From: Vicinamibacteria bacterium
GTDB taxonomy: Bacteria > Acidobacteriota > Vicinamibacteria > Fen-336
NCBI GenBank assembly: GCA_023701125.1
Contig: JAMPXO010000010.1
Coordinates: 1 to 64,000 of the forward strand
Direction of reading: 5' to 3'
Length of the DNA: 64,000 nucleotides
Under the pieces are notes generated by a model, which saw nothing but the letters and a program-made list of their open reading frames with translations, was not told the origin of the DNA and did not search any database. Each line of letters begins with the position of its first letter. The stretch's first letter is position 1. Of this stretch, positions 8,652-56,784 are shown one piece after another. The translations under genes and the position numbers were made by a program.

Positions 8652-9079
8652 CCGGTGGCGTGATCGACCTCAAGGTCGTCGGGGATCGGCTGCAGATCGT
8701 GGCCGAGGCACTCGAGCGCCTGCGTTCGCTGCCGGTGGAACGGGAGCCGTTCGCGGCCGACTGGAGAAACGCGGCGGCAGCCGACGCCGAACTCCGCCGC
8801 GGCATCGAGGCACTGTTCGATGTGGCGCGACATCTGTTGTCGAGGAGGTTCGGGCTGGGCGCCCTCGAATACCGTCAGGCGGCGCGTGCGTGCGCGGACA
8901 AGGGACTCGTCCCTGATCCGGAACTCGCCGCCCGGTTCGTCGAGATCGCCGGGTTCCGCAACCGGCTGACGCACTTCTACGACGAGGTGACGGCCGAGGA
9001 ATTGCTCGCTGTTCGGGCCGGGCACCTCGACGAGCTGGAGGCGCTGGCGGCGGCGTTGCGCGCCGCCGCCAGTCCGTAG
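8648..9079 (+). CDS. hepT: HEPN-domain toxin (HepT/DUF86 family)
   Basis: A 143-aa all-helical protein with the R-x4-H-x-Y active-site motif intact: R104, H109 and Y111 in RNRLTHFY. In this family the motif forms an RNase site in a dimer, and the tyrosine is the residue AMPylated by the cognate MNT protein. The gene overlaps mntA by ATGA, the standard order for this module (antitoxin first in this subtype). The toxin target (mRNA or tRNA) is not deducible. The gene ends directly against a copy of the dispersed repeat. Confidence 0.88.
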   Translation: MTGGVIDLKVVGDRLQIVAEALERLRSLPVEREPFAADWRNAAAADAELRRGIEALFDVARHLLSRRFGLGALEYRQAARACADKGLVPDPELAARFVEIAGFRNRLTHFYDEVTAEELLAVRAGHLDELEALAAALRAAASP

Positions 9080-9168
9080 GGTTCCGGTGCCGGGCAAAGC
9101 CCGTCACCGGTCCCATGGGGGCTCCGTCGCGAACGGACGCTCCTCGGCCCCCAACCCCCCCGGCGGGA
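9080..9168. repeat. Dispersed structured repeat, copy A
   Basis: Fills the whole gap between the convergent hepT and mdh stop codons. Stem I pairs CCGGTG (9084-9089) with CACCGG (9105-9110) around an inner stem CGGGC/GCCCG, flanked by GGG...CCC. Stem II pairs TGGGGGC (9115-9121) with GCCCCCA (9146-9152) around an inner hairpin TCCGT-cgcga-ACGGA (9123-9137). Reverse-complement copies occur at 16524-16658 and 56687-56774, and a same-strand copy at 48041-48125. Its position suggests a two-way transcription end. Confidence 0.75.
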
Positions 9169-16523: not shown

Positions 16524-16658
16524 GGGTAGCCCCCATGGGACCGGCGCCGGGTTCACCCCAGCGCCGGAACCCGACGGGGGTTTGGGGGCGGAGGAGCTTC
16601 CGTTCGCGACGTAGCCCCCATGGGACCGGCGCCGGGTTCACCCCAGCGCCGGAACCCG
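16524..16658. repeat. Dispersed structured repeat, copy B (partly duplicated)
   Basis: Fills exactly the space between two convergent stop codons. A 48-bp block is present twice without a mismatch, at 16526-16573 and 16611-16658 (85-bp period). Each block holds stem I (CCGGCGC pairing with GCGCCGG). Between them is the stem II part, with TGGGGGC (16583-16589) pairing with GCCCCCA (16614-16620). Orientation is reverse to copy A. The exact duplication looks recent compared with the divergence between copies. Confidence 0.8.
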
Positions 16659-17945
16659 TTATGACGCCTTCACGTCGTAGACGTAGAGGTCGTCCTGCTC
16701 GCGCAGGTACAGGCGACCGCCGAGCACGACCGGGTGCGACCACGACGGCCTGGTCACGCCCGGGATGTCGAAGCTGCCCTTCTCCTTGTAGCCCGTCGGC
16801 GTGGCCTCGATCAGCACCACCTTGCCGTTCTGGTAACGGAAGTAGAGGTGGCCGTCGGCGTAGTGGACCGCCGCCGAGCCACTGCCGGCGTTGCGCAGGC
16901 TGGCGCCGCCCCACAGCACCTTGCCCGTGGCCATCTCGATCGCGATCGGGTGGCCGCGGTTGTGGCCGTGACCCGCGTACAGCGTGTCGCCGACCAGCAC
17001 GATCCCGCCGTGGTGGTTCTGGAACGTGGAGGCGTCGAGGAAGTAGACCTCCTGGGCGGCGACGCCTGCGCCGTCCTTGACCAGCTTGAGCAGCGCCGAG
17101 CCCGTGCCGTAGCTCGTCGACGCGAACACGAAGTCGCCCTTGACGATCGGGGTCGGGATGTTGGCGACCGCGTTGGCGACGCGGCCGTAGTGCCACAGCA
17201 GCTTGCCGTCGGACGCGCGCACGCCGACCACGCCGCGGCCGACCATCTGCACGTACTGCCTGACGCCTGCGCCGTTCGAGATCACGACGCCCGCGTAGGC
17301 GGCGCCGGGCTTGCCCGTGGTGCCGAGGTCGGGCGCGGCGGTGCGCCACAGCTCCTGGCCCGTCTTCTTGTCGAGGGCGACCAGCAGCGCGTCGGGGCCG
17401 CCGGGGGTGACGATCAAGCGGTCGCCGTCGACCAGCGGCGACTCGGAGAACTTCCACATCGACATCATCACGCCGCCGAAGTCCTTCGGCAGACTGCGCC
17501 GCCAGCTCTCCTTGCCGGTCGCGGCGTCGAGGCAGACCAGGTCGCCCTCGGTGCCGACGGCGTAGACGAAGCCGCCGTCGACGCTGGGCGTCGCCCGCGG
17601 GCCCAGGAACTCGTCGACCCAGGCAGGGCCGACCGCGGTCGACCACAACTTGCGGCCGTCCTTCGCGTCGAGTGCCATCACGTGCTGGGTGCCGCCGACG
17701 TCGCCCATCGTGTAGAGCCGGCCGCCGGCGATCGCCAGCGAGGAGAAGCCGGTGCCGAGGCCGCTCGCCTTCCACGCGAGCTTCGGGCCCGTCGCCGGCC
17801 AGCTCGCGAGCAGGCCCTTGTCCGGCGACAGCGCGTCGCGCTGCGGGCCGCGCCAGCCTGGCCAGGCCGGCGCCTGCGCGGCGGACGTGAGCGCCGGCAA
17901 CAGCGCCAGCGCCGCGAGCCCGATCCTTCGTGCGGTGGTCCGCAT
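16659..17945 (-). CDS. Secreted PQQ-type beta-propeller protein (2)
   Basis: A 428-aa exported protein: signal peptide about 1-22, then WPGWRGP, then blades with the D-A-x-x-G-K-x-x-W pattern (near 92-100, 140-148, 193-201 and 240-248). A G-H-G-H-N-R-G-H histidine-rich loop near 325 is unusual among the seven paralogues and could bind metal. Quinoprotein dehydrogenase catalytic residues are not evident. GGAGG lies 8 nt before ATG 17945. No operon partner: it faces the HExxH gene and diverges from the symporter operon. Role unknown. Confidence 0.75.
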
Positions 17946-40794: not shown

Positions 40795-43700
40795 ATGCCG
40801 CTCGCCCCCAGGCTCCTGCTCGTGCCCTCGCGTGCGGCCGCCGCCGAGCTGCCGCGGCGGGTCGCGGCCCGCGAGCGGCGGGCACTGGCCGGGCTGTTCC
40901 CGCTCACCCTCCTGGACCTGGCCCGGCTGATCGCCGAGCCGCGCCTGCTGGGGCGCGGGCTGCGGCCGTGGGACCACGGCCGGCTGGCGCTGATCGCCCG
41001 CGAGTGGCTGCTGGCCGGCGGCGCTCGCGCGCTCGGCCTCGACCCCGACCTGCCGATCGGCCCGGTCGCGGCGGCGCTGGGCCGCACGTTGCGCGAACTG
41101 CGGCTGGCCGGGGCCAGCACCCGCGCGCTCGCGGAATTGCCGGCAGACCCGGGCATCGGCGGGGTGGACGCGGCCCGGCGCCATGCCGTGGCCGAGGCCT
41201 TCCGCCATGCGCTCACGCGGATCGAGGGCCGGATCGCCGATCCCGCGACCGTGCTGGCGGCCGCCACCGAGGCGCTGCTGGGCCGCGACGCGCAGGCCAC
41301 GGCCTGGCTGGACGGCGCTCGCTGCGCGTGGATCGCCGGCCCGGACCTGTGGCCGCTGGAGCGCGACCTGCTCGTCGCACTCGCCCGCCACCTGCCGGTC
41401 GAACGCTGGGACCCGCCGCTGCCGCCTGGCTTGCGCGCCGGTGCGCCGGAGGTCCGCGGCGCGACCCGTGGCGAGCCCTCCGCCGACTTCGTGGGGTTCG
41501 CGGCGCTGGCCGCGGGCGAGCGCCCCGCGGGTCTCGCGCGGCTGGCCAGTCACCTGTTCGAGCCGGGCCCTGGCGAGCCCGCTTTCGACGGGCTGACCTT
41601 CATCACCGCCCCCGGCGAAGCGGCCGAGGCGCGGGCGATCGCGCGCCGGCTGCTGGCCGCCGCCGGCGACGGATTCGGCTTCGAGGACATGGCCGTGCTG
41701 CTGCCGCGGGCGGAAGGCGCGACGCTGTACGCCGAGACCCTGCGCCGCGCCCGCATCCCGTGCCGGCTGCACCCCTCGCTGCCGCTGGCGACCGGCCCCA
41801 CGGCCCGCGCGCTGCTGCTGCTGCTGCGCTGCCGCGGGCTGGGCCGGGCCGAGGTGCTGGAGTTCCTGGGCTTCTGCCGCGCGCCGTTCGGGCGCTGGCT
41901 GGCACCGGGCCACGACGCCCTGCCCTCGCGCTGGGAAGCGGTCAGTCGCGACGCCCGGATCGTGTCCGGCCTCGACCGCTTCCGGGCCGGCCTGCGCGGG
42001 CTGGCCGAAGACGCCCGGCGGGCCGGGCGCGCGGCGCGGGCGGACGACGCACTCGACCTGCTGGTGGTGGTCGAGGCGCTGGCCCGAACCCTCGCAGAGT
42101 TCGAGGCCGGCGCGCCGTGGGCGACGTGGTCGCAGCGGCTGCGGAGCGCGCTCGAGGACTGGGTCGGACCCGACGCCGACCGCGAGGCCGTGCAGGACGT
42201 GATCGCCGACCTCGGTGGGCTCGGCAGCGGCCCTGCGTCGCTCGACGAGGTGGAGACGGCACTCGTGGCCCGCTTCGAGTGGGAGCGCATGCCGCTGGTC
42301 GCGCCGCGCGAAGGCGCCGTCCACGTCGGCGTCTTCGACGCGCTGGCGGGCGTGCCGTTCCGCCTCGTCTGCATCCCCGGCCTGGTCGAGGGCGGGTTCC
42401 CGGCGCCGATCCGCCCCGACCCGTTCCTGCTCGACGCCGAGCGCACGATGCTGGGGGCTCCGTCGCAAGCTGCCTCCGCCCCGCCGCCTTCGCGCCGGGC
42501 GAGCGTCGCGGGCGGCCAGCTCTCGCTGTTCGAGGCGCCGGCGGCGCCGACCGTTGCCCTGCTGCCGACGGTCGCCGACCGCCTGCGCGGCCTGCGCCGC
42601 GCGTTCCACGCGGCCGCGTCCCAGGCGACCGAGCGGCTGGTGCTCTCGTACCCGCGCGCCGATCCGCGCACGGGCAAGGAGCGGCTGCCGTCGCTGTTCT
42701 ACGTCGCTGCGCTGTCGGCGGCGCTGGGCCGGCCCGCGGGCGGCGCGGACCTCGAGAACCAGGTGGCCGAAGACGATCCCGCGATGCTGCCGCCCGAGCA
42801 GGCCCTCGACGCCGGCGAACGCGACCTGTGGCGGATGCGCCAGGGCGGCGAAGCGGCCGCCGACCAGATCGCGGCCGGCTCGCCGAGCTTCCGGCTGTCG
42901 CGGCTGGCGAGTGTCGCCCGCTTCCAGTCGTCGCTGACCGCGTGGGACGGCCGGCTCGACCCGCTGACGCCGGCGATCCAGGAGCGGATCGACCCCATCA
43001 GCCGCGTGCTCTCCGCCTCGCGCCTGCACGACTACGCGGGCTGCGGCTTCCAGTACCTGCTGAAGCACGTGCTGAAGCTGGAGCCGGCGCTGGCGCCCGA
43101 GGAGCGCACGGCGCTCGACCCGCTGGAGCGCGGCACCGCGTTCCACGCCGTCGCCGAGCAGTTGCTGCGCGAGTGGCGCGACGCCGGGGCGTTCCCGCTG
43201 CAGGACGATGCGGCGACGCGGGCCCGCGCGGAGGAGATCGCGCGCGCGGAACTGGCGAAGATCGTGGCCCAGAGCCCGCCGCGGTTCACAGCGCTGTGGG
43301 AGCGCGAGTGCGCGCTGTTCCTCGACCTGGTGCGGCAGTTCGTGAAACGCGAGGCGCAGTCCCAGGCGGCACCCGGCGCGCCACGCCCGGCCCACTTCGA
43401 GCTGGCCTTCGGCCGCGTCCACGACGCGGAGCCGGGCGAGCCGCACCGCGCGGAGCCGCTCACCATCCCGCTGCCGTCGGGGGCGACGCTGCGCCTCTCC
43501 GGCCAGATCGACCGCGTCGACCGCAACGCCGACGGCAGCTACGTCGTGCGCGACTACAAGACGGGCCGGGCGCCGAAGGACGAAGGGGCCGTGTTCCGCG
43601 GCGGGCGCCAGCTCCAGATCCCGCTCTACATCCGCGCGCTGGGCGAGATCCTGCCGGGGGCGAAGGTCGAGAAAGCGTTCCTCGACTACGTCAACGGCGG

Positions 43701-43932
43701 CCGGCCGGTCGCGATCCGGCCCGAGGTGGCGAACTCGGACGAGTTGCTGCGGCTGCTCGACGAGGTGGTCGGCCTGATGCGGCGCGGCGTGTTCCCGCAG
43801 GAGGCCTCCGCCTGCGTGTGGTGCGATTTCACGACCGTGTGCGGGCCGCAGCCGCTGGTCGCCCAGCGCCTGCGGATCAAGGAGCGCGACGCCGAGTTGC
43901 GGCGCTACGTGCGGCTACGGGACTTCCGATGA
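40795..43932 (+). CDS. addB: AddB-like subunit: nuclease with iron-sulfur staple
   Basis: A 1045-aa partner of the AddA helicase-nuclease in double-strand-break end processing. The N-terminal part has the superfamily-I-like fold seen in AddB (L-L-L-V-P-S-R-A) but no Walker A, as in RexB-type proteins. The C-terminal PD-(D/E)XK nuclease has the R-D-Y-K-T-G catalytic segment near 918-923 and an iron-sulfur staple: C750 upstream, then C1007-x2-C1010-x5-C1016. A stretch near 551-570 (M-L-G-A-P-S-Q-A-A-S-A-P-P-P) is low-complexity, and its DNA resembles the dispersed repeat. It overlaps addA by 4 nt (ATGA). Confidence 0.82.
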   Translation: MPLAPRLLLVPSRAAAAELPRRVAARERRALAGLFPLTLLDLARLIAEPRLLGRGLRPWDHGRLALIAREWLLAGGARALGLDPDLPIGPVAAALGRTLRELRLAGASTRALAELPADPGIGGVDAARRHAVAEAFRHALTRIEGRIADPATVLAAATEALLGRDAQATAWLDGARCAWIAGPDLWPLERDLLVALARHLPVERWDPPLPPGLRAGAPEVRGATRGEPSADFVGFAALAAGERPAGLARLASHLFEPGPGEPAFDGLTFITAPGEAAEARAIARRLLAAAGDGFGFEDMAVLLPRAEGATLYAETLRRARIPCRLHPSLPLATGPTARALLLLLRCRGLGRAEVLEFLGFCRAPFGRWLAPGHDALPSRWEAVSRDARIVSGLDRFRAGLRGLAEDARRAGRAARADDALDLLVVVEALARTLAEFEAGAPWATWSQRLRSALEDWVGPDADREAVQDVIADLGGLGSGPASLDEVETALVARFEWERMPLVAPREGAVHVGVFDALAGVPFRLVCIPGLVEGGFPAPIRPDPFLLDAERTMLGAPSQAASAPPPSRRASVAGGQLSLFEAPAAPTVALLPTVADRLRGLRRAFHAAASQATERLVLSYPRADPRTGKERLPSLFYVAALSAALGRPAGGADLENQVAEDDPAMLPPEQALDAGERDLWRMRQGGEAAADQIAAGSPSFRLSRLASVARFQSSLTAWDGRLDPLTPAIQERIDPISRVLSASRLHDYAGCGFQYLLKHVLKLEPALAPEERTALDPLERGTAFHAVAEQLLREWRDAGAFPLQDDAATRARAEEIARAELAKIVAQSPPRFTALWERECALFLDLVRQFVKREAQSQAAPGAPRPAHFELAFGRVHDAEPGEPHRAEPLTIPLPSGATLRLSGQIDRVDRNADGSYVVRDYKTGRAPKDEGAVFRGGRQLQIPLYIRALGEILPGAKVEKAFLDYVNGGRPVAIRPEVANSDELLRLLDEVVGLMRRGVFPQEASACVWCDFTTVCGPQPLVAQRLRIKERDAELRRYVRLRDFR

Positions 43933-46900
43933 AGCCCGTCGACGAAGACGTCCGCGTGCGACTGCGCCGCGACCACGCGACCAGCTTCGTGCTGGAGGCC
44001 GGCGCCGGCACCGGCAAGACGACGCTGATCGTCGATCGGGTGGTCGCCCTGATCACCGCGGGCGACGCGAGGCTCGACGAGATCGCCGCCGTCACCTTCA
44101 CCGAGAACGCCGCGGCGACGCTCAAGCTGCGGCTGCGCGAGGCGCTCGAGCTGTGCCGTGCGGATGCGGCGCGGCCGCAGGCGGAGCGCGAGCGCGCGGC
44201 GCTGGCGCTGGAGACGCTGGAGAGCGCGCCGGTCACCACCATCCACGCGCTGTGCGCGGCGCTGCTCGCCGAGCGGCCGCTGGAGTGCGGCGTCGTGCCC
44301 GGCTTCCGCGTCGCCGACGACGCCGAGATGGACCGCTTCTTCGCCCAGGCCTGGGACGAGTGGCTGGCCGAGCACCTGGTCGCGGGCGATCCGGCGCTGC
44401 TGGAGGCGCTCGACGACGGCGTGCCGCTGGCCAACGACTTCGTCTACGCCCAACGCTCGTCGCTGCGCGGGCTGTGCCGCACGCTGTGCGATCAGCGCGA
44501 CCTGCGGCCGCTGGTCGCCGCCGCCCCGCCCGATCCCGAGGCCTGGCGCGCGGAGCTGGTCGAACGCCTGCTGGTGGCGCTGCCCCACGCCGCCGGCGCG
44601 AAATCGGCCGACGCGCTGGCCGCCCGCCTGCTCGACCTCGGCGAGCAGGCCCGCGGGCTCGACGGCCTCGCGGGTGCCGCCCTGTCGGCGGCGCTGTTCG
44701 CGCTGCCGGAACTGAAGGTCCAGGGCGACAAGCGCCACTGGCCGTCGCCCGCGGCGCTGGAGGCGGGCCGCGATTTCGCGCGCTGGTGGCGCGACGCACG
44801 CGACTCGTGGACCGCCGCGCAAGGCGCCGCCCGCCACGGCCGGCTGATCGCACTCGCCGGCGACGTCGTGCGCCGCTACGAGGCGCGCAAGCAGGCGGCC
44901 GGTGCGCTCGACTTCCTCGACCTGCTGGTCCGCGCCCGCGACGCGCTTTGCCGCAACGCCGCGTTGCGCGACCACTTCCGGGCCCGCTTCCGGTTCGTGA
45001 TCATCGACGAGTTCCAGGACACCGACCCGCTGCAGGTCGAGATCGCGGAGGCGCTGACCGGCGGCGCGGCGGGCCGGCTGACCGTGGTCGGCGACCCCAA
45101 GCAGTCGATCTACCGCTTCCGCCGCGCCGAGGTGGCGCTGTTCGAGCGCCTGCGCGAGCGCGCAGAGGGCCAGCCCGGCCACGCGGTGGCGCGGCTGTCG
45201 CAGAACTTCCGCTCGCGGCCGGCGATCGTGCGCTTCGTCAACCGCACGTTCGAGTCGCTGCTGGTGCGCTCGGAAGAGGCTGGCCAGCCGGCCTACGCGC
45301 CGATCGCGCCGCGCGCCGATCTCGAAGGCGGCCCGGCGGTCCTCGCGCTGCGCTTCCCCGCCTTCGCCGAAACGGGCGCTGACCTGCTGGCGGCCGAGGC
45401 CCGGGTGGCGGCCTGCTTCGCGGCGCAGGTGGCGCAGGGCGGCTACCCGGTGCGCGACGGCCTTCACGAGCGGCCGTCGCGGGCGGGCGACCTGCTGGTG
45501 CTGGCCCGGCGCTTCACCCAGTTGCGGGCGCTGGAAGAGGCGCTCGACGCGGCCGGGATCGGGTTCGTGGTCGAGGGCGGCAAGAGCTTCTTCGACCGCG
45601 CCGAGGTCCATGAAACACGGGCGGTGCTGCAGGCGATCGACGACCCGTCCGACCGGGTGGCGCTGTTCGGCGCCCTGCGCAGCGCGTTCTTCGGCGTCTC
45701 CGACCGCGACCTGGTCGCCTACGCGCTGGCCGCCGGCCCTGGCTTCTCGCTGCTGCCGGAGCCGGACCCCGCCCGCGACGGCGGCCTGGCGGTGGCCCCC
45801 GCGCTGGCGCTGCTGCGCCTTCTGCACGGGCGGCGCCGCCACGACAGCGTGGCGCAGTTGCTGGAGACGCTGTTCGACCGCACCCGGGTCCAGGCCGCGC
45901 TGTTCGGCACCCGCCGTGGCGGCGCTCGCATCGCCAACCTCGACAAGGTCGTGGCGCTCGCCCGCGAGGCCGCGCGCTCCGGCGTGCCGACGCTGCGCGC
46001 GTTCCTCGGCCTGCTCGACGAGCGGATCGCCTCCGCCCGCGAGGAGCCCGACCTGCCGGAGACCCGGCCTGGCGACCCCGACACCGCGCGCGTGCTGTCG
46101 ATCCACCGCGCCAAGGGCCTGGAGGCGCCGATCGTGCTGCTGCACGACGTCGCCGACAAGGGCGGCGTGCGCAACGACACGATCGCGCTGTGGGAGCGCG
46201 GGGAGGTCGCGATCGGTTTCCGCGCCGGCTGCCAGCCGCCCGGCTGGGACGTGCTGCGACGGCAGGACGAGAAGCGCGGGCTGGCGGAGAACAAGCGCCT
46301 GCTCTACGTCGCCTGCACCCGCGCCCGCGACTGGCTGGCGATCCCGGACCCGCAGGGGGCGCAGGTCGGCGACTTCTGGAAGCCGCTGCTCGACGCGCTG
46401 CCGGTGAAGTCCGACCCGGACGTCGAGGTGGTCGACGCCGAGACGTTGCCGCTGCCACCGGAGCGGCCGAAGGCGCGCGGCCTGCGGTTGACCGCGGCCG
46501 CGGGCGGCGACGCCGTGGCGGCGCGCTGGGAGCAGGAGCGCGGGGCGGCGCTCGAGGCCGCCTGCCATCGCGACTTCACGCCGATCTCGGCGACCGCCGC
46601 CGCGGCCCGCGAGGCGCCGCCGGTCGCTGCGACCGGTGGCGGGCCCGGCGGTCGCGACTTCGGCGGCCTGGTCCACCGCGTGCTGCAGCACCTGCCGTTC
46701 CCCGACCCCGCGGCCGTGGAGCGGGCCCGGGCGCTGGCGACCGGCCTCGCCCCGCTGTGCGGCCTCGAGCCCGAGGCCGCGGCGCGGGCCGCGCAGTTGT
46801 GCGCGGAGCTGCTCGCCCACCCGCTGGCCGACCGCGTGCGGCGTTCGCCGCGGGTGCTGCGCGAACTGCGGGTGTGGCTGCCCGAGGAAGGCGAGCTGGT

Positions 46901-47117
46901 CGAGGGCGTCGTCGACCTCGCGTTCGAGGAGGACGGCGGGCTGGTCGTGGTCGACTGGAAGACCGACGCGATCGCTGCCGACCAGGCGATCGACCAGGCC
47001 GCCCACCACGCGCCACAGTTGCGGTTGTATGCGCGGGCGCTGGCGCTGGCCACTGGCCTGCGCGTGCGCGAGCGGCTCGTCTACTTCACCACGGTGGCGC
47101 GCGCGATCCCGGTCTGA
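43929..47117 (+). CDS. addA: AddA-like helicase-nuclease
   Basis: A 1062-aa UvrD/Rep-superfamily helicase with a C-terminal nuclease, which unwinds and resects DNA ends for recombination. Walker A is GAGTGKTT at 25-32, the Walker B-like motif is I-I-D-E-F-Q-D-T-D near 357-365, motif III is D-P-K-Q-S-I-Y-R-F-R-R near 390-400, motif V-like S-I-H-R-A-K-G-L-E is near 723-731 and Y-V-A-C-T-R-A-R is near 794-801. The nuclease has D-W-K-T-D-A near 1015-1020. Start ATG 43929 overlaps the addB stop. 50 nt separate it from the next nuclease gene. Confidence 0.9.
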   Translation: MKPVDEDVRVRLRRDHATSFVLEAGAGTGKTTLIVDRVVALITAGDARLDEIAAVTFTENAAATLKLRLREALELCRADAARPQAERERAALALETLESAPVTTIHALCAALLAERPLECGVVPGFRVADDAEMDRFFAQAWDEWLAEHLVAGDPALLEALDDGVPLANDFVYAQRSSLRGLCRTLCDQRDLRPLVAAAPPDPEAWRAELVERLLVALPHAAGAKSADALAARLLDLGEQARGLDGLAGAALSAALFALPELKVQGDKRHWPSPAALEAGRDFARWWRDARDSWTAAQGAARHGRLIALAGDVVRRYEARKQAAGALDFLDLLVRARDALCRNAALRDHFRARFRFVIIDEFQDTDPLQVEIAEALTGGAAGRLTVVGDPKQSIYRFRRAEVALFERLRERAEGQPGHAVARLSQNFRSRPAIVRFVNRTFESLLVRSEEAGQPAYAPIAPRADLEGGPAVLALRFPAFAETGADLLAAEARVAACFAAQVAQGGYPVRDGLHERPSRAGDLLVLARRFTQLRALEEALDAAGIGFVVEGGKSFFDRAEVHETRAVLQAIDDPSDRVALFGALRSAFFGVSDRDLVAYALAAGPGFSLLPEPDPARDGGLAVAPALALLRLLHGRRRHDSVAQLLETLFDRTRVQAALFGTRRGGARIANLDKVVALAREAARSGVPTLRAFLGLLDERIASAREEPDLPETRPGDPDTARVLSIHRAKGLEAPIVLLHDVADKGGVRNDTIALWERGEVAIGFRAGCQPPGWDVLRRQDEKRGLAENKRLLYVACTRARDWLAIPDPQGAQVGDFWKPLLDALPVKSDPDVEVVDAETLPLPPERPKARGLRLTAAAGGDAVAARWEQERGAALEAACHRDFTPISATAAAAREAPPVAATGGGPGGRDFGGLVHRVLQHLPFPDPAAVERARALATGLAPLCGLEPEAAARAAQLCAELLAHPLADRVRRSPRVLRELRVWLPEEGELVEGVVDLAFEEDGGLVVVDWKTDAIAADQAIDQAAHHAPQLRLYARALALATGLRVRERLVYFTTVARAIPV

Positions 47118-47167
47118 ACCGGGACGTCCGGGCCGGGACATCGCCTGTGATAGCGTCGCCGGCGACG

Positions 47168-48157
47168 ATGGAACCACGCCCGTTCTCCTGGTCGGTGTCG
47201 CGCCACGACACCTTCGACTCGTGCCGGCGCAAGTACTACTACTCGTACTACGGATCGCTCGAGGACCCCGAGATCGCGCGCCTGAAGAAGCTGTCGGCGC
47301 TGCCGCTGTGGACCGGGTCGGTGGTCCACGAGACGATCGAGGCGTTCCTCAAGGAACGCGACGCGTTGCCCTCGGAAGCCGAGCAGAAGGCGATCGCCGA
47401 GGCCGCCGTGCACGAGCGGATGAAGGGCGACTGGCGCGACAGCGAGCAGGCCTCGCTGCGCTTTCGGCTGTTCGAGCACGAGTACGAGCAGGAGGTCTCG
47501 GCCGACGACAAGAAGATCGCCGTCAGCACGGTGCGCCGCTGCCTGCGCGCGTTCTTCCGCTCGCAGACTCTGAAGGACGCGTTCGCCGCCGGCCGCGCGA
47601 ACTGGCTCTCGCTCGAGGACCTGATCGGCTTCGAGCTGGAGGGCGTGCCGGTGTTCCTGCGCATGGACCTCGCCTACCGCGCCACCAACGGACAGGTCGT
47701 GATCGTCGACTGGAAGACGGGGCGCAGCGAGGGCCGCTTCAACGCGGTCCAGCTCGCCGGTTACGCGCTGTACGCCGCCGCGCAGAAGTGGGCGGACGCG
47801 CCGGAGCAGATCGAGACCGAGCTCGCCTACCTGGCCGTGCCGCGCTTCGTGCGGCGCCGGGTCGACGCCGACATGCTGGCCGCTGCCCGCGCGTTCGTCG
47901 TCAGGAGCGCCGGCAAGATGCGCGGCCTGCTCGTCGACGCCGAGCGGAACCTGGCCCGGATCGACGACTTCGCCCGCATCGACAACCCGCGGCGCTGCCG
48001 CCGCTGCAACTTCCGCAGGCTGTGCTTCCCTCGTTTCGACGGGCTCCAGGGCCGGGGGGACCCCGGCCCTGGTCCCATGGGGGCTCCGTCGGACGACTCC
48101 GGCCTCCTCCGCCCCCAAGCCCCCAGGGCGCTCGTCGCCGTGGAGTCTCGGGCGTGA
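47168..48157 (+). CDS. Small PD-(D/E)XK Fe-S nuclease (Cas4/AddB-nuclease-like)
   Basis: A 329-aa nuclease of the PD-(D/E)XK superfamily. Catalytic V-D-W-K-T-G is near 180-185. Four cysteines (C19, C277, C280, C286) have the same C-x2-C-x5-C spacing as the staple of the AddB-like protein, so a [4Fe-4S] cluster is likely. No Walker A. Closest in kind to the PF12705/Cas4-like nucleases. Its last 37 or so residues (about 293-329) are encoded by repeat copy D and are probably not part of the fold. It starts at ATG 47168 and its TGA overlaps the GTG of ccmA. Together with addAB it gives three nuclease domains in a row. Confidence 0.75.
   Translation: MEPRPFSWSVSRHDTFDSCRRKYYYSYYGSLEDPEIARLKKLSALPLWTGSVVHETIEAFLKERDALPSEAEQKAIAEAAVHERMKGDWRDSEQASLRFRLFEHEYEQEVSADDKKIAVSTVRRCLRAFFRSQTLKDAFAAGRANWLSLEDLIGFELEGVPVFLRMDLAYRATNGQVVIVDWKTGRSEGRFNAVQLAGYALYAAAQKWADAPEQIETELAYLAVPRFVRRRVDADMLAAARAFVVRSAGKMRGLLVDAERNLARIDDFARIDNPRRCRRCNFRRLCFPRFDGLQGRGDPGPGPMGAPSDDSGLLRPQAPRALVAVESRA
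48041..48125 (+). repeat. Dispersed structured repeat, copy D (within a coding 3' end)
   Basis: Stem I is a 12-bp perfect stem, CCAGGGCCGGGG (48046-48057) with CCCCGGCCCTGG (48061-48072), loop GGA, flanked by GGG and CCC. Stem II pairs TGGGGGC (48078-48084) with GCCCCCA (48111-48117). Same strand as copy A. Base changes in stem I against copies A and B are matched on the other arm. The element is translated as the tail of the Fe-S nuclease. Confidence 0.75.
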
Positions 48158-48864
48158 CCACACCGCTCGCCCTCGACGTGCAGGGACTGGCCCGCCGCTA
48201 CGGCGGGCGCTGGGCGCTGTCCGGCGTCAGCTTCAGCCTCGAGGCCGGACAGGCGCTGGCGCTGGTCGGCCGCAACGGCTCGGGCAAGTCGACCCTGCTG
48301 CGGCTGCTGGCCGCCGCCCTGCGCGTGCACGCCGGCGAGGCCCGGGTGTGCGGCGCCGACCTGCGCCGCGACGCCGACACCGTGCGCCGGCGCACGGCCC
48401 TGCTCTCACACGCGGCCTACACCTGGGAGGCGCTGTCGGCGCGCGAGAATCTGGTCTTCACCAGCCGCCTGCTGGGCCAGGACCGGCCTCGGGAACGGGC
48501 CGCGCAGCGGCTCGAGCAGGTCGGCCTCGCGGCCCGCGGCGACGACCCGGTGAGCTCGTTCTCCGCCGGCATGCGCAAGCGCCTGGCGCTGGCGCGCACG
48601 CTGCTGCAGGAGGCACCGCTGGTGATGCTCGACGAGCCCTACGGGGCGCTCGACCCGCCCGGCTTCCGGCTGATCGACGGCATCATCCGCGCGGTCCGCG
48701 TCGAGGGCCGCAGCGTGGTGATGGCCACCCACCAGGTCGAGCGCGCGGCGGCACTGTGCGACCGCGGCCTGGTGCTGGAGCAGGGCCGGGTGGCATGGCA
48801 GGGCCCGGCGGCGGAGCTGCCGCTGAAGAGCGGCCTGCTGCGCGGCTCGGAGGAGGGCGCATGA
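48154..48864 (+). CDS. ccmA: Haem exporter ATPase CcmA
   Basis: A 236-aa ABC ATPase of the CcmAB(CD) module that releases holo-CcmE in cytochrome c maturation. Walker A is GRNGSGKST near 39-47, the signature is F-S-A-G-M-R-K-R near 133-140, Walker B is L-V-M-L-D-E-P near 155-161 and the switch histidine is A-T-H near 190. Length is normal (about 200-230). GTG 48154 overlaps the upstream nuclease stop by 4 nt; the stop overlaps ccmB by ATGA. Confidence 0.88.
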   Translation: MTTPLALDVQGLARRYGGRWALSGVSFSLEAGQALALVGRNGSGKSTLLRLLAAALRVHAGEARVCGADLRRDADTVRRRTALLSHAAYTWEALSARENLVFTSRLLGQDRPRERAAQRLEQVGLAARGDDPVSSFSAGMRKRLALARTLLQEAPLVMLDEPYGALDPPGFRLIDGIIRAVRVEGRSVVMATHQVERAAALCDRGLVLEQGRVAWQGPAAELPLKSGLLRGSEEGA

Positions 48865-56686: not shown

Positions 56687-56774
56687 CCCGGTGGGGGTGC
56701 GGGGGCGGAGGAGCGTCCGGTCGCGACGTAGACCCCGCGGGACCGGCGACGGGTTCACCCCGGCGGCGGAACCC
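56687..56774. repeat. Dispersed structured repeat, copy C
   Basis: Lies between convergent stop codons (VKOR gene and GTPase gene), in the orientation of copy B. Stem I is slightly mismatched; inner stem CGGG/CCCG kept. In stem II, GCGGGG pairs with CCCCGC instead of the TTGGGG/CCCCAT-type pairing of the other copies, a double change that keeps the helix. Identity to copy B over the shared part is high by eye. Confidence 0.72.
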
Positions 56775-56784
56775 GGTAGTCGGG

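Follow-up and report, generated by a model that had tools for sequence, protein, structure and literature searches.

The window examined here, a 64,000-nucleotide stretch of DNA from a Vicinamibacteria bacterium (contig JAMPXO010000010.1, positions 1 to 64,000), belongs to a 5.4-Mb assembly of 254 contigs (genome G000), and its named near relatives are Acidobacteria metagenome-assembled genomes, several of the class Vicinamibacteria. Its forward strand encodes, in succession, (i) an AddB-like subunit, (ii) the AddA subunit, and (iii) a small stand-alone PD-(D/E)XK nuclease, which is the subject of this analysis (Table 1). AddAB is generally regarded as a machine of two subunits and two nucleases, and the PD-(D/E)XK nucleases of AddB, Cas4, and Dna2, which bear a four-cysteine iron-sulfur (Fe-S) staple, cleave DNA at ends. 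The gap between addA and the third gene is 50 bp, or 29 bp if translation begins at an alternative GTG.

A first-pass annotation of the window had read three nuclease domains in a row, and Pfam bears this out with PDDEXK_1 matches in AddB (E-value 3.5e-35), AddA (7.5e-11), and the small protein (1.4e-23). The staple cysteines it assigned to AddB and the small protein are also in place. AddB combines its VVRDYKTG motif with the staple, while the AddA nuclease domain has its own motif without a C-x2-C-x5-C arrangement. The gene that follows the small nuclease, which we take to be ccmA, is presumably succeeded by further ccm genes (putative names, assigned from sequence); the same 4-bp overlap between nuclease and ccmA occurs in the same-genus relatives G001 and G002.

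Table 1. Features of the addBA-nuclease locus and copies of the dispersed repeat (window positions)
Feature	Position	Strand	Remarks
addB	40795..43932	+	AddB-like subunit, 1045 aa; staple C750/C1007/C1010/C1016, D-x-K motif present
AddB C-terminal PDDEXK_1 nuclease domain	43009..43842	+	
addA	43929..47117	+	Superfamily 1 (SF1) helicase with C-terminal nuclease (VVVDWKTDAI), 1062 aa; start 4 bp inside addB
AddA PDDEXK_1 nuclease domain	46653..47093	+	
Small stand-alone PD-(D/E)XK nuclease	47168..48157	+	329 aa; four-cysteine staple, ACE1/Cas4-like family; conserved core approximately residues 1-290
Alternative GTG start of small nuclease	47147	+	
C19, first staple cysteine of small nuclease	47222..47224	+	From sequence; invariant in alignment
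D181-W-K183 catalytic motif of small nuclease	47708..47716	+	From sequence; invariant in alignment
C277-x2-C280-x5-C286 staple cysteines of small nuclease	47996..48025	+	From sequence; invariant in alignment
Two-hairpin dispersed repeat (~86 bp), copy within 3′ end of small nuclease gene	48037..48125	+	
Repeat copy	9079..9160	+	
Repeat copies	16528..16659	-	One full and one partial, in tandem
Repeat copy	56692..56775	-	
Gene read as ccmA	48154..48864	+	Start 4 bp inside small nuclease gene

The small protein is predicted to be an intact PD-(D/E)XK enzyme by its motifs, staple, and fold, and would be expected to have DNase activity and to hold an Fe-S cluster. In 50 aligned relatives from several phyla, C19, H54, D167, D181-W182-K183-T184-G185, Q195, Y199, C277, C280, and C286 are invariant, and the C-x2-C-x5-C element is present at 79 of 80 loci, the exception (L106) being a frame that reaches the contig end before the staple region. 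A structure predicted from an input of window and named-contig proteins has a mean predicted local distance difference test (pLDDT) score of 95.8 and a predicted template modelling (pTM) score of 0.91.

Among solved structures, the best match to this model is ACE1 (Argonaute-associated Cas4 family protein 1; PDB 9iab and 9iac, the name being taken from the PDB entry titles), a stand-alone protein of similar size. Entry 9iac gives a Z score of 18.8 with a root-mean-square deviation of 3.4 over 243 aligned residues, and the second ACE1 entry gives 17.7; Foldseek likewise places ACE1 first. Lower Z scores are obtained for the nucleases of AdnA (15.7), AddB (13.2, 4cei_B), and AddA (12.1) and for Cas4 (11.9, 8d3l_I). 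The sole match of an order-level sequence profile among PDB sequences at E ≤ 0.01 is 9iab, and it is weak (0.005). ACE1 differs from the small nuclease in having only 16–18% identity to it, and the window's gene adjoins addA and has no prokaryotic Argonaute (pAgo) neighbor. Residues 7–287 of the small nuclease, near its full length, match PDLC02406 (7.5e-24), and both PADLOC Aga_Cas4-like_Nuc models (PDLC02406 and PDLC02410) are matched by all 50 aligned members. Judged by sequence, the family is one of widespread stand-alone nucleases, of the pfam12705 Cas4-like kind, found in several phyla.

The staple pattern common to AddB and the small protein, which the first-pass annotation had singled out, is real. 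However, the staple is present in 22/22 small-family, 12/12 AddB, and 17/17 PF01930 Cas4-family rows, and therefore lends no weight to a special tie between AddB and the small protein. It also occurs in 5/8 other helicase-linked domains, some of the three misses being domains shortened by the boundaries of the domain match.

The further proposal that the small protein is a duplicated AddB nuclease domain turned free-standing is very improbable. Superfamily, catalytic motif, and staple spacing are held in common, but in a tree of 59 rows (AddA nuclease domains were left out of the trees) the 22 rows of the small family form one side of a branch supported at 100/100. The window AddB groups with the AddBs of order relatives G006 and G014 at 100/99. 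Forcing the order's small proteins and AddBs into one clade costs 94.7 log units and is rejected by the approximately unbiased (AU) test (p-AU 3.7e-45). Moreover, genomes from other phyla contain both genes without linkage: a PF12705 search of 12 genomes with the small gene (two of the order, two other Acidobacteriota, and eight reached through named loci) found further PDDEXK_1 genes in each, which in Priestia and Paenibacillus include AddB-sized frames far from the small nuclease gene. The small nuclease also lacks the helicase-like part of AddB. A local or order-level origin from AddB is rejected on these sequence trees, whereas a grouping of the whole small family with the whole AddB family survives the AU test (p-AU 0.065). 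The deep branching among nuclease families differs between two trees and is unresolved: the small family joins Cas4 at 79/81 in the first and a helicase-fused group at 82/79 in the second. Neither the C-x2-C-x5-C staple nor adjacency, then, demonstrates AddB descent by itself.

A role as the Cas4 of a CRISPR system (clustered regularly interspaced short palindromic repeats), which the first-pass annotation had considered unsupported, is rejected on the present searches. CRISPR Cas4 proteins (PF01930, TIGR00372) have the superfamily and staple in common with the small nuclease, but the latter scores 16.6 bits on TIGR00372 against a cut-off of 65. Cas1 was found in none of 15 order genomes, whereas the search for it was positive in 9 of 14 controls. 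Scanning the window for exact 20-mers at regular spacing revealed no CRISPR-like array, and PF01930 has no match in G000.

Within the order to which the window's genome belongs, a single-protein search found the small nuclease gene in 15 of 17 genomes, the two without it being 63% and 78% complete, and in none of 23 other sampled genomes of the class. An order profile run on a wider phylum sample matched 19 of 297 genomes at E ≤ 1e-10, three of them in the order. A search of the 17 for AddB was positive in 15. Among the 15 genomes that carry the nuclease, eight (G000, G001, G002, G006, G010, G014, G015, and G016) have it no more than 3 kb downstream of addA. This gene order is kept across two families of the order, and a possible in-frame nuclease start overlaps addA by 4 bp in G014, G015, and G016. 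The linkage amounts to one change on the best nuclease tree, which has 14 order rows (13 labelled) and a poorly resolved backbone. Wherever the linked loci are readable, nuclease motifs are present in AddA (eight genomes) and AddB (seven genomes); a third nuclease that substitutes for a dead AddA or AddB nuclease is thereby rejected, and the third enzyme would add to their activity rather than replace it.

These observations slightly favor the reading that an intact Fe-S-type nuclease was recruited beside addBA in this order of Vicinamibacteria and processes DNA ends there. A stand-alone member of the family would have been placed next to addBA during the history of the order, where its position in a subset of genomes at least makes it a candidate third gene of one transcription unit with addB and addA. 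Its most likely substrates are flaps and DNA ends that are single-stranded or frayed: the enzyme may bind single-stranded tails arising from AddAB or from fraying and trim back the strands unwound by AddAB. Alongside the two nuclease domains already present in AddAB, such an enzyme could be useful for clean-up, for the choice of polarity, or for fragmenting the degraded strand. The first-pass annotation had likewise suggested an accessory nuclease for DNA-end processing. An intact nuclease linked to addAB in more than one genome agrees with this, and the processing role itself is a prediction from sequence.

Several arrangements weigh against such recruitment. A MacB/FtsX-type permease gene sits between addA and the nuclease in G001, and in G010 more than 5 kb separates addB from addA and a reverse-strand frame precedes the nuclease. 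The nuclease of G004 lies on the same contig and strand as the end of addB, approximately 15 kb apart, and reading around the nuclease revealed no addA in G003, G005, G007, G008, or G012. Even in the window's own genus, the nuclease is closer to ccmA than to addA. Outside the order, addB occurs in the flank of none of 67 named loci (L070–L137 without L076), an SF1 helicase in the flank of two (one being the UvrD-type gene of L109), and neither AddA nor AddB at any of 15 phylum loci. The addAB linkage is real, yet no examined locus outside the window's order shows it. The phylogeny and neighborhood survey proposed in the first-pass annotation had a divided outcome: the small protein belongs to a different family, and addAB linkage recurs in other genomes, in one order only.

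Such exceptions are what would be expected if the neighborhood arose by chance and an independent repair or defence enzyme happens to follow addA with no functional tie to AddAB. This explanation is a credible though lesser possibility, favored by the intervening genes, by the unlinked copies in several order genomes and at all loci examined outside the order, and by the varied partners described below. It accounts less readily for a gene order kept in two families, for the possible 4-bp start/stop overlap in three genomes, and for a linkage that requires a single change on the best tree.

Other copies and fragments were encountered in the order. The nuclease gene is in two pieces in G003 and lies at a contig end in G013. 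The addB contig of G008 bears a truncated nuclease gene start (L026, 193–273) that breaks off after approximately 24 codons; a complete gene is present on a different contig. G000 has a second, divergent AddAB-like pair (L042, 8659–12003 and 12000–15071, contig C235), and no small nuclease was found within the 20 kb read around it. On contig C97 of the same genome, a frame for an SF1 helicase whose C-terminus bears a PDDEXK_1 domain (L043, 7338–10274) resembles published UvrD-Cas4 fusions, and this domain groups with frames of G006 and G014.

The window nuclease gene is 87 bp longer than those of G001 and G002, which end at 300 aa. The extra 87 bp are an in-frame copy of an approximately 86-bp dispersed repeat of two GC-rich hairpins, which supplies most of the last ~38 residues; residues beyond ~290 therefore should not be counted toward the nuclease. 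Some copies of the repeat are in tandem. A covariance-model search, which scored at most 150 candidates per genome, found at least 150 copies in G000, 46 in G001, 62 in G002, and none in 23 other genomes searched. Its stems show 99.5% pairing and 14 double changes, compared with a mean of 1.7 after shuffling, values biased in favor of the structure, which was derived from the same alignment. Among the genomes searched, the repeat is a genus-specific, dispersed, and structured element. Rfam has no match in 36000–57000, and the copies at 9079 and 16528 fall outside that stretch. A RAYT/REP origin was rejected because no Y1 transposase is matched in the three genomes of the genus.

Outside the order, two genes on either side of the family gene were surveyed for partners at 80 loci, of which 23 have a sought partner and 57 have none. 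The most frequent partner is an alkyltransferase-like gene (PF01035) immediately upstream at 11 loci, all of them in Halobacillus and hence representing few independent events (L077, L079, L080, L081, L087, L091, L093, L099, L101, L111, and L121); these two genes are possibly an alkyl-damage repair pair. MutT lies upstream at two loci, both in Acidobacteriota, and RecQ overlaps the family gene at one (Domibacillus). The remainder include MutY (1/80), MGMT (2/80), and a 5′-3′ exonuclease two genes off (4/80). Matches to DpdF at L117 were set aside, since Pfam assigns RecQ domains instead. In Paenibacillus thalictri (L109, 4182–8906), the genes for an OLD-like ATPase, a UvrD helicase, and the family nuclease follow one another, and a PprDinG-like gene lies beyond them; the first two are apparently gajA and gajB, and the locus is possibly an extended Gabija-type system. 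The survey agrees with PMC5704561, which remarks on several independent pairings of pfam12705 Cas4-like nucleases with UvrD, other helicases, or defence genes, and with PMC6299218, according to which some pAgo operons include Cas4 proteins.

A long pAgo gene adjoins the family nuclease at two of the 80 loci, both in Acidobacteriota (L171, 6565–9836; L172, 6418–9629). The gap is 2 bp in L171, and in L172 the genes overlap by 46 bp as called or by 4 bp from a later ATG. In the second tree, both nucleases lie on long branches inside the family group (24 rows, 90/80, which is below the starred level of support). No pAgo stands beside the window nuclease, whose flanking genes read are addA and ccmA. 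Piwi (PF02171) matches were found in 0/15 order genomes (control positive in 1/14) and in a second search in 0/22, negatives that are downgraded because PF02171 also misses both pAgos of L171 and L172. A separate search for the family in viruses gave 131 pattern matches, which reduced to eight relatives, three of them near full length.

These contexts raise the alternative that the family degrades invader DNA or supplies guides for pAgo, Gabija-like, or other systems, so that the addAB-linked enzyme would be a defence add-on. The pAgo-abutting members, the Gabija-like row in L109, and the closeness of ACE1 in structure point this way, as does a passage in PMC10653904 relating that loss of a Cas4-like gene in S. 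elongatus favored plasmid transfer or maintenance. Such a role is nonetheless improbable for the window's enzyme: its presence in 15 of 17 order genomes is as expected of a core gene, and the Halobacillus, MutT, and RecQ contexts look like repair. The absence of Piwi matches in 15 order genomes would point the same way, but that search is insensitive, as described above.

Recruitment beside addBA may, more tentatively, be one instance of a broader habit, in which a partner-swapping family of DNA-end nucleases accompanies AddAB in one order, Argonautes in other Acidobacteriota, and RecQ, GajAB, MutT, or alkyltransferase-like proteins elsewhere. The order would then possess a three-nuclease end-resection system, and a common substrate, broken or unwound DNA ends, could link recombination repair to Argonaute guide generation. 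If pAgos take their guides from what RecBCD or AddAB releases at breaks, it is plausible that one nuclease family serves both processes. Nothing usable on ACE1 or on such stand-alone or addAB-linked nucleases was found in the open-licence literature, so prior reports may exist. With a third Fe-S-type nuclease encoded beside AddAB, from a family that abuts Argonaute genes in other lineages, this order would offer a testable bridge from double-strand-break processing to the provision of DNA fragments for defence.

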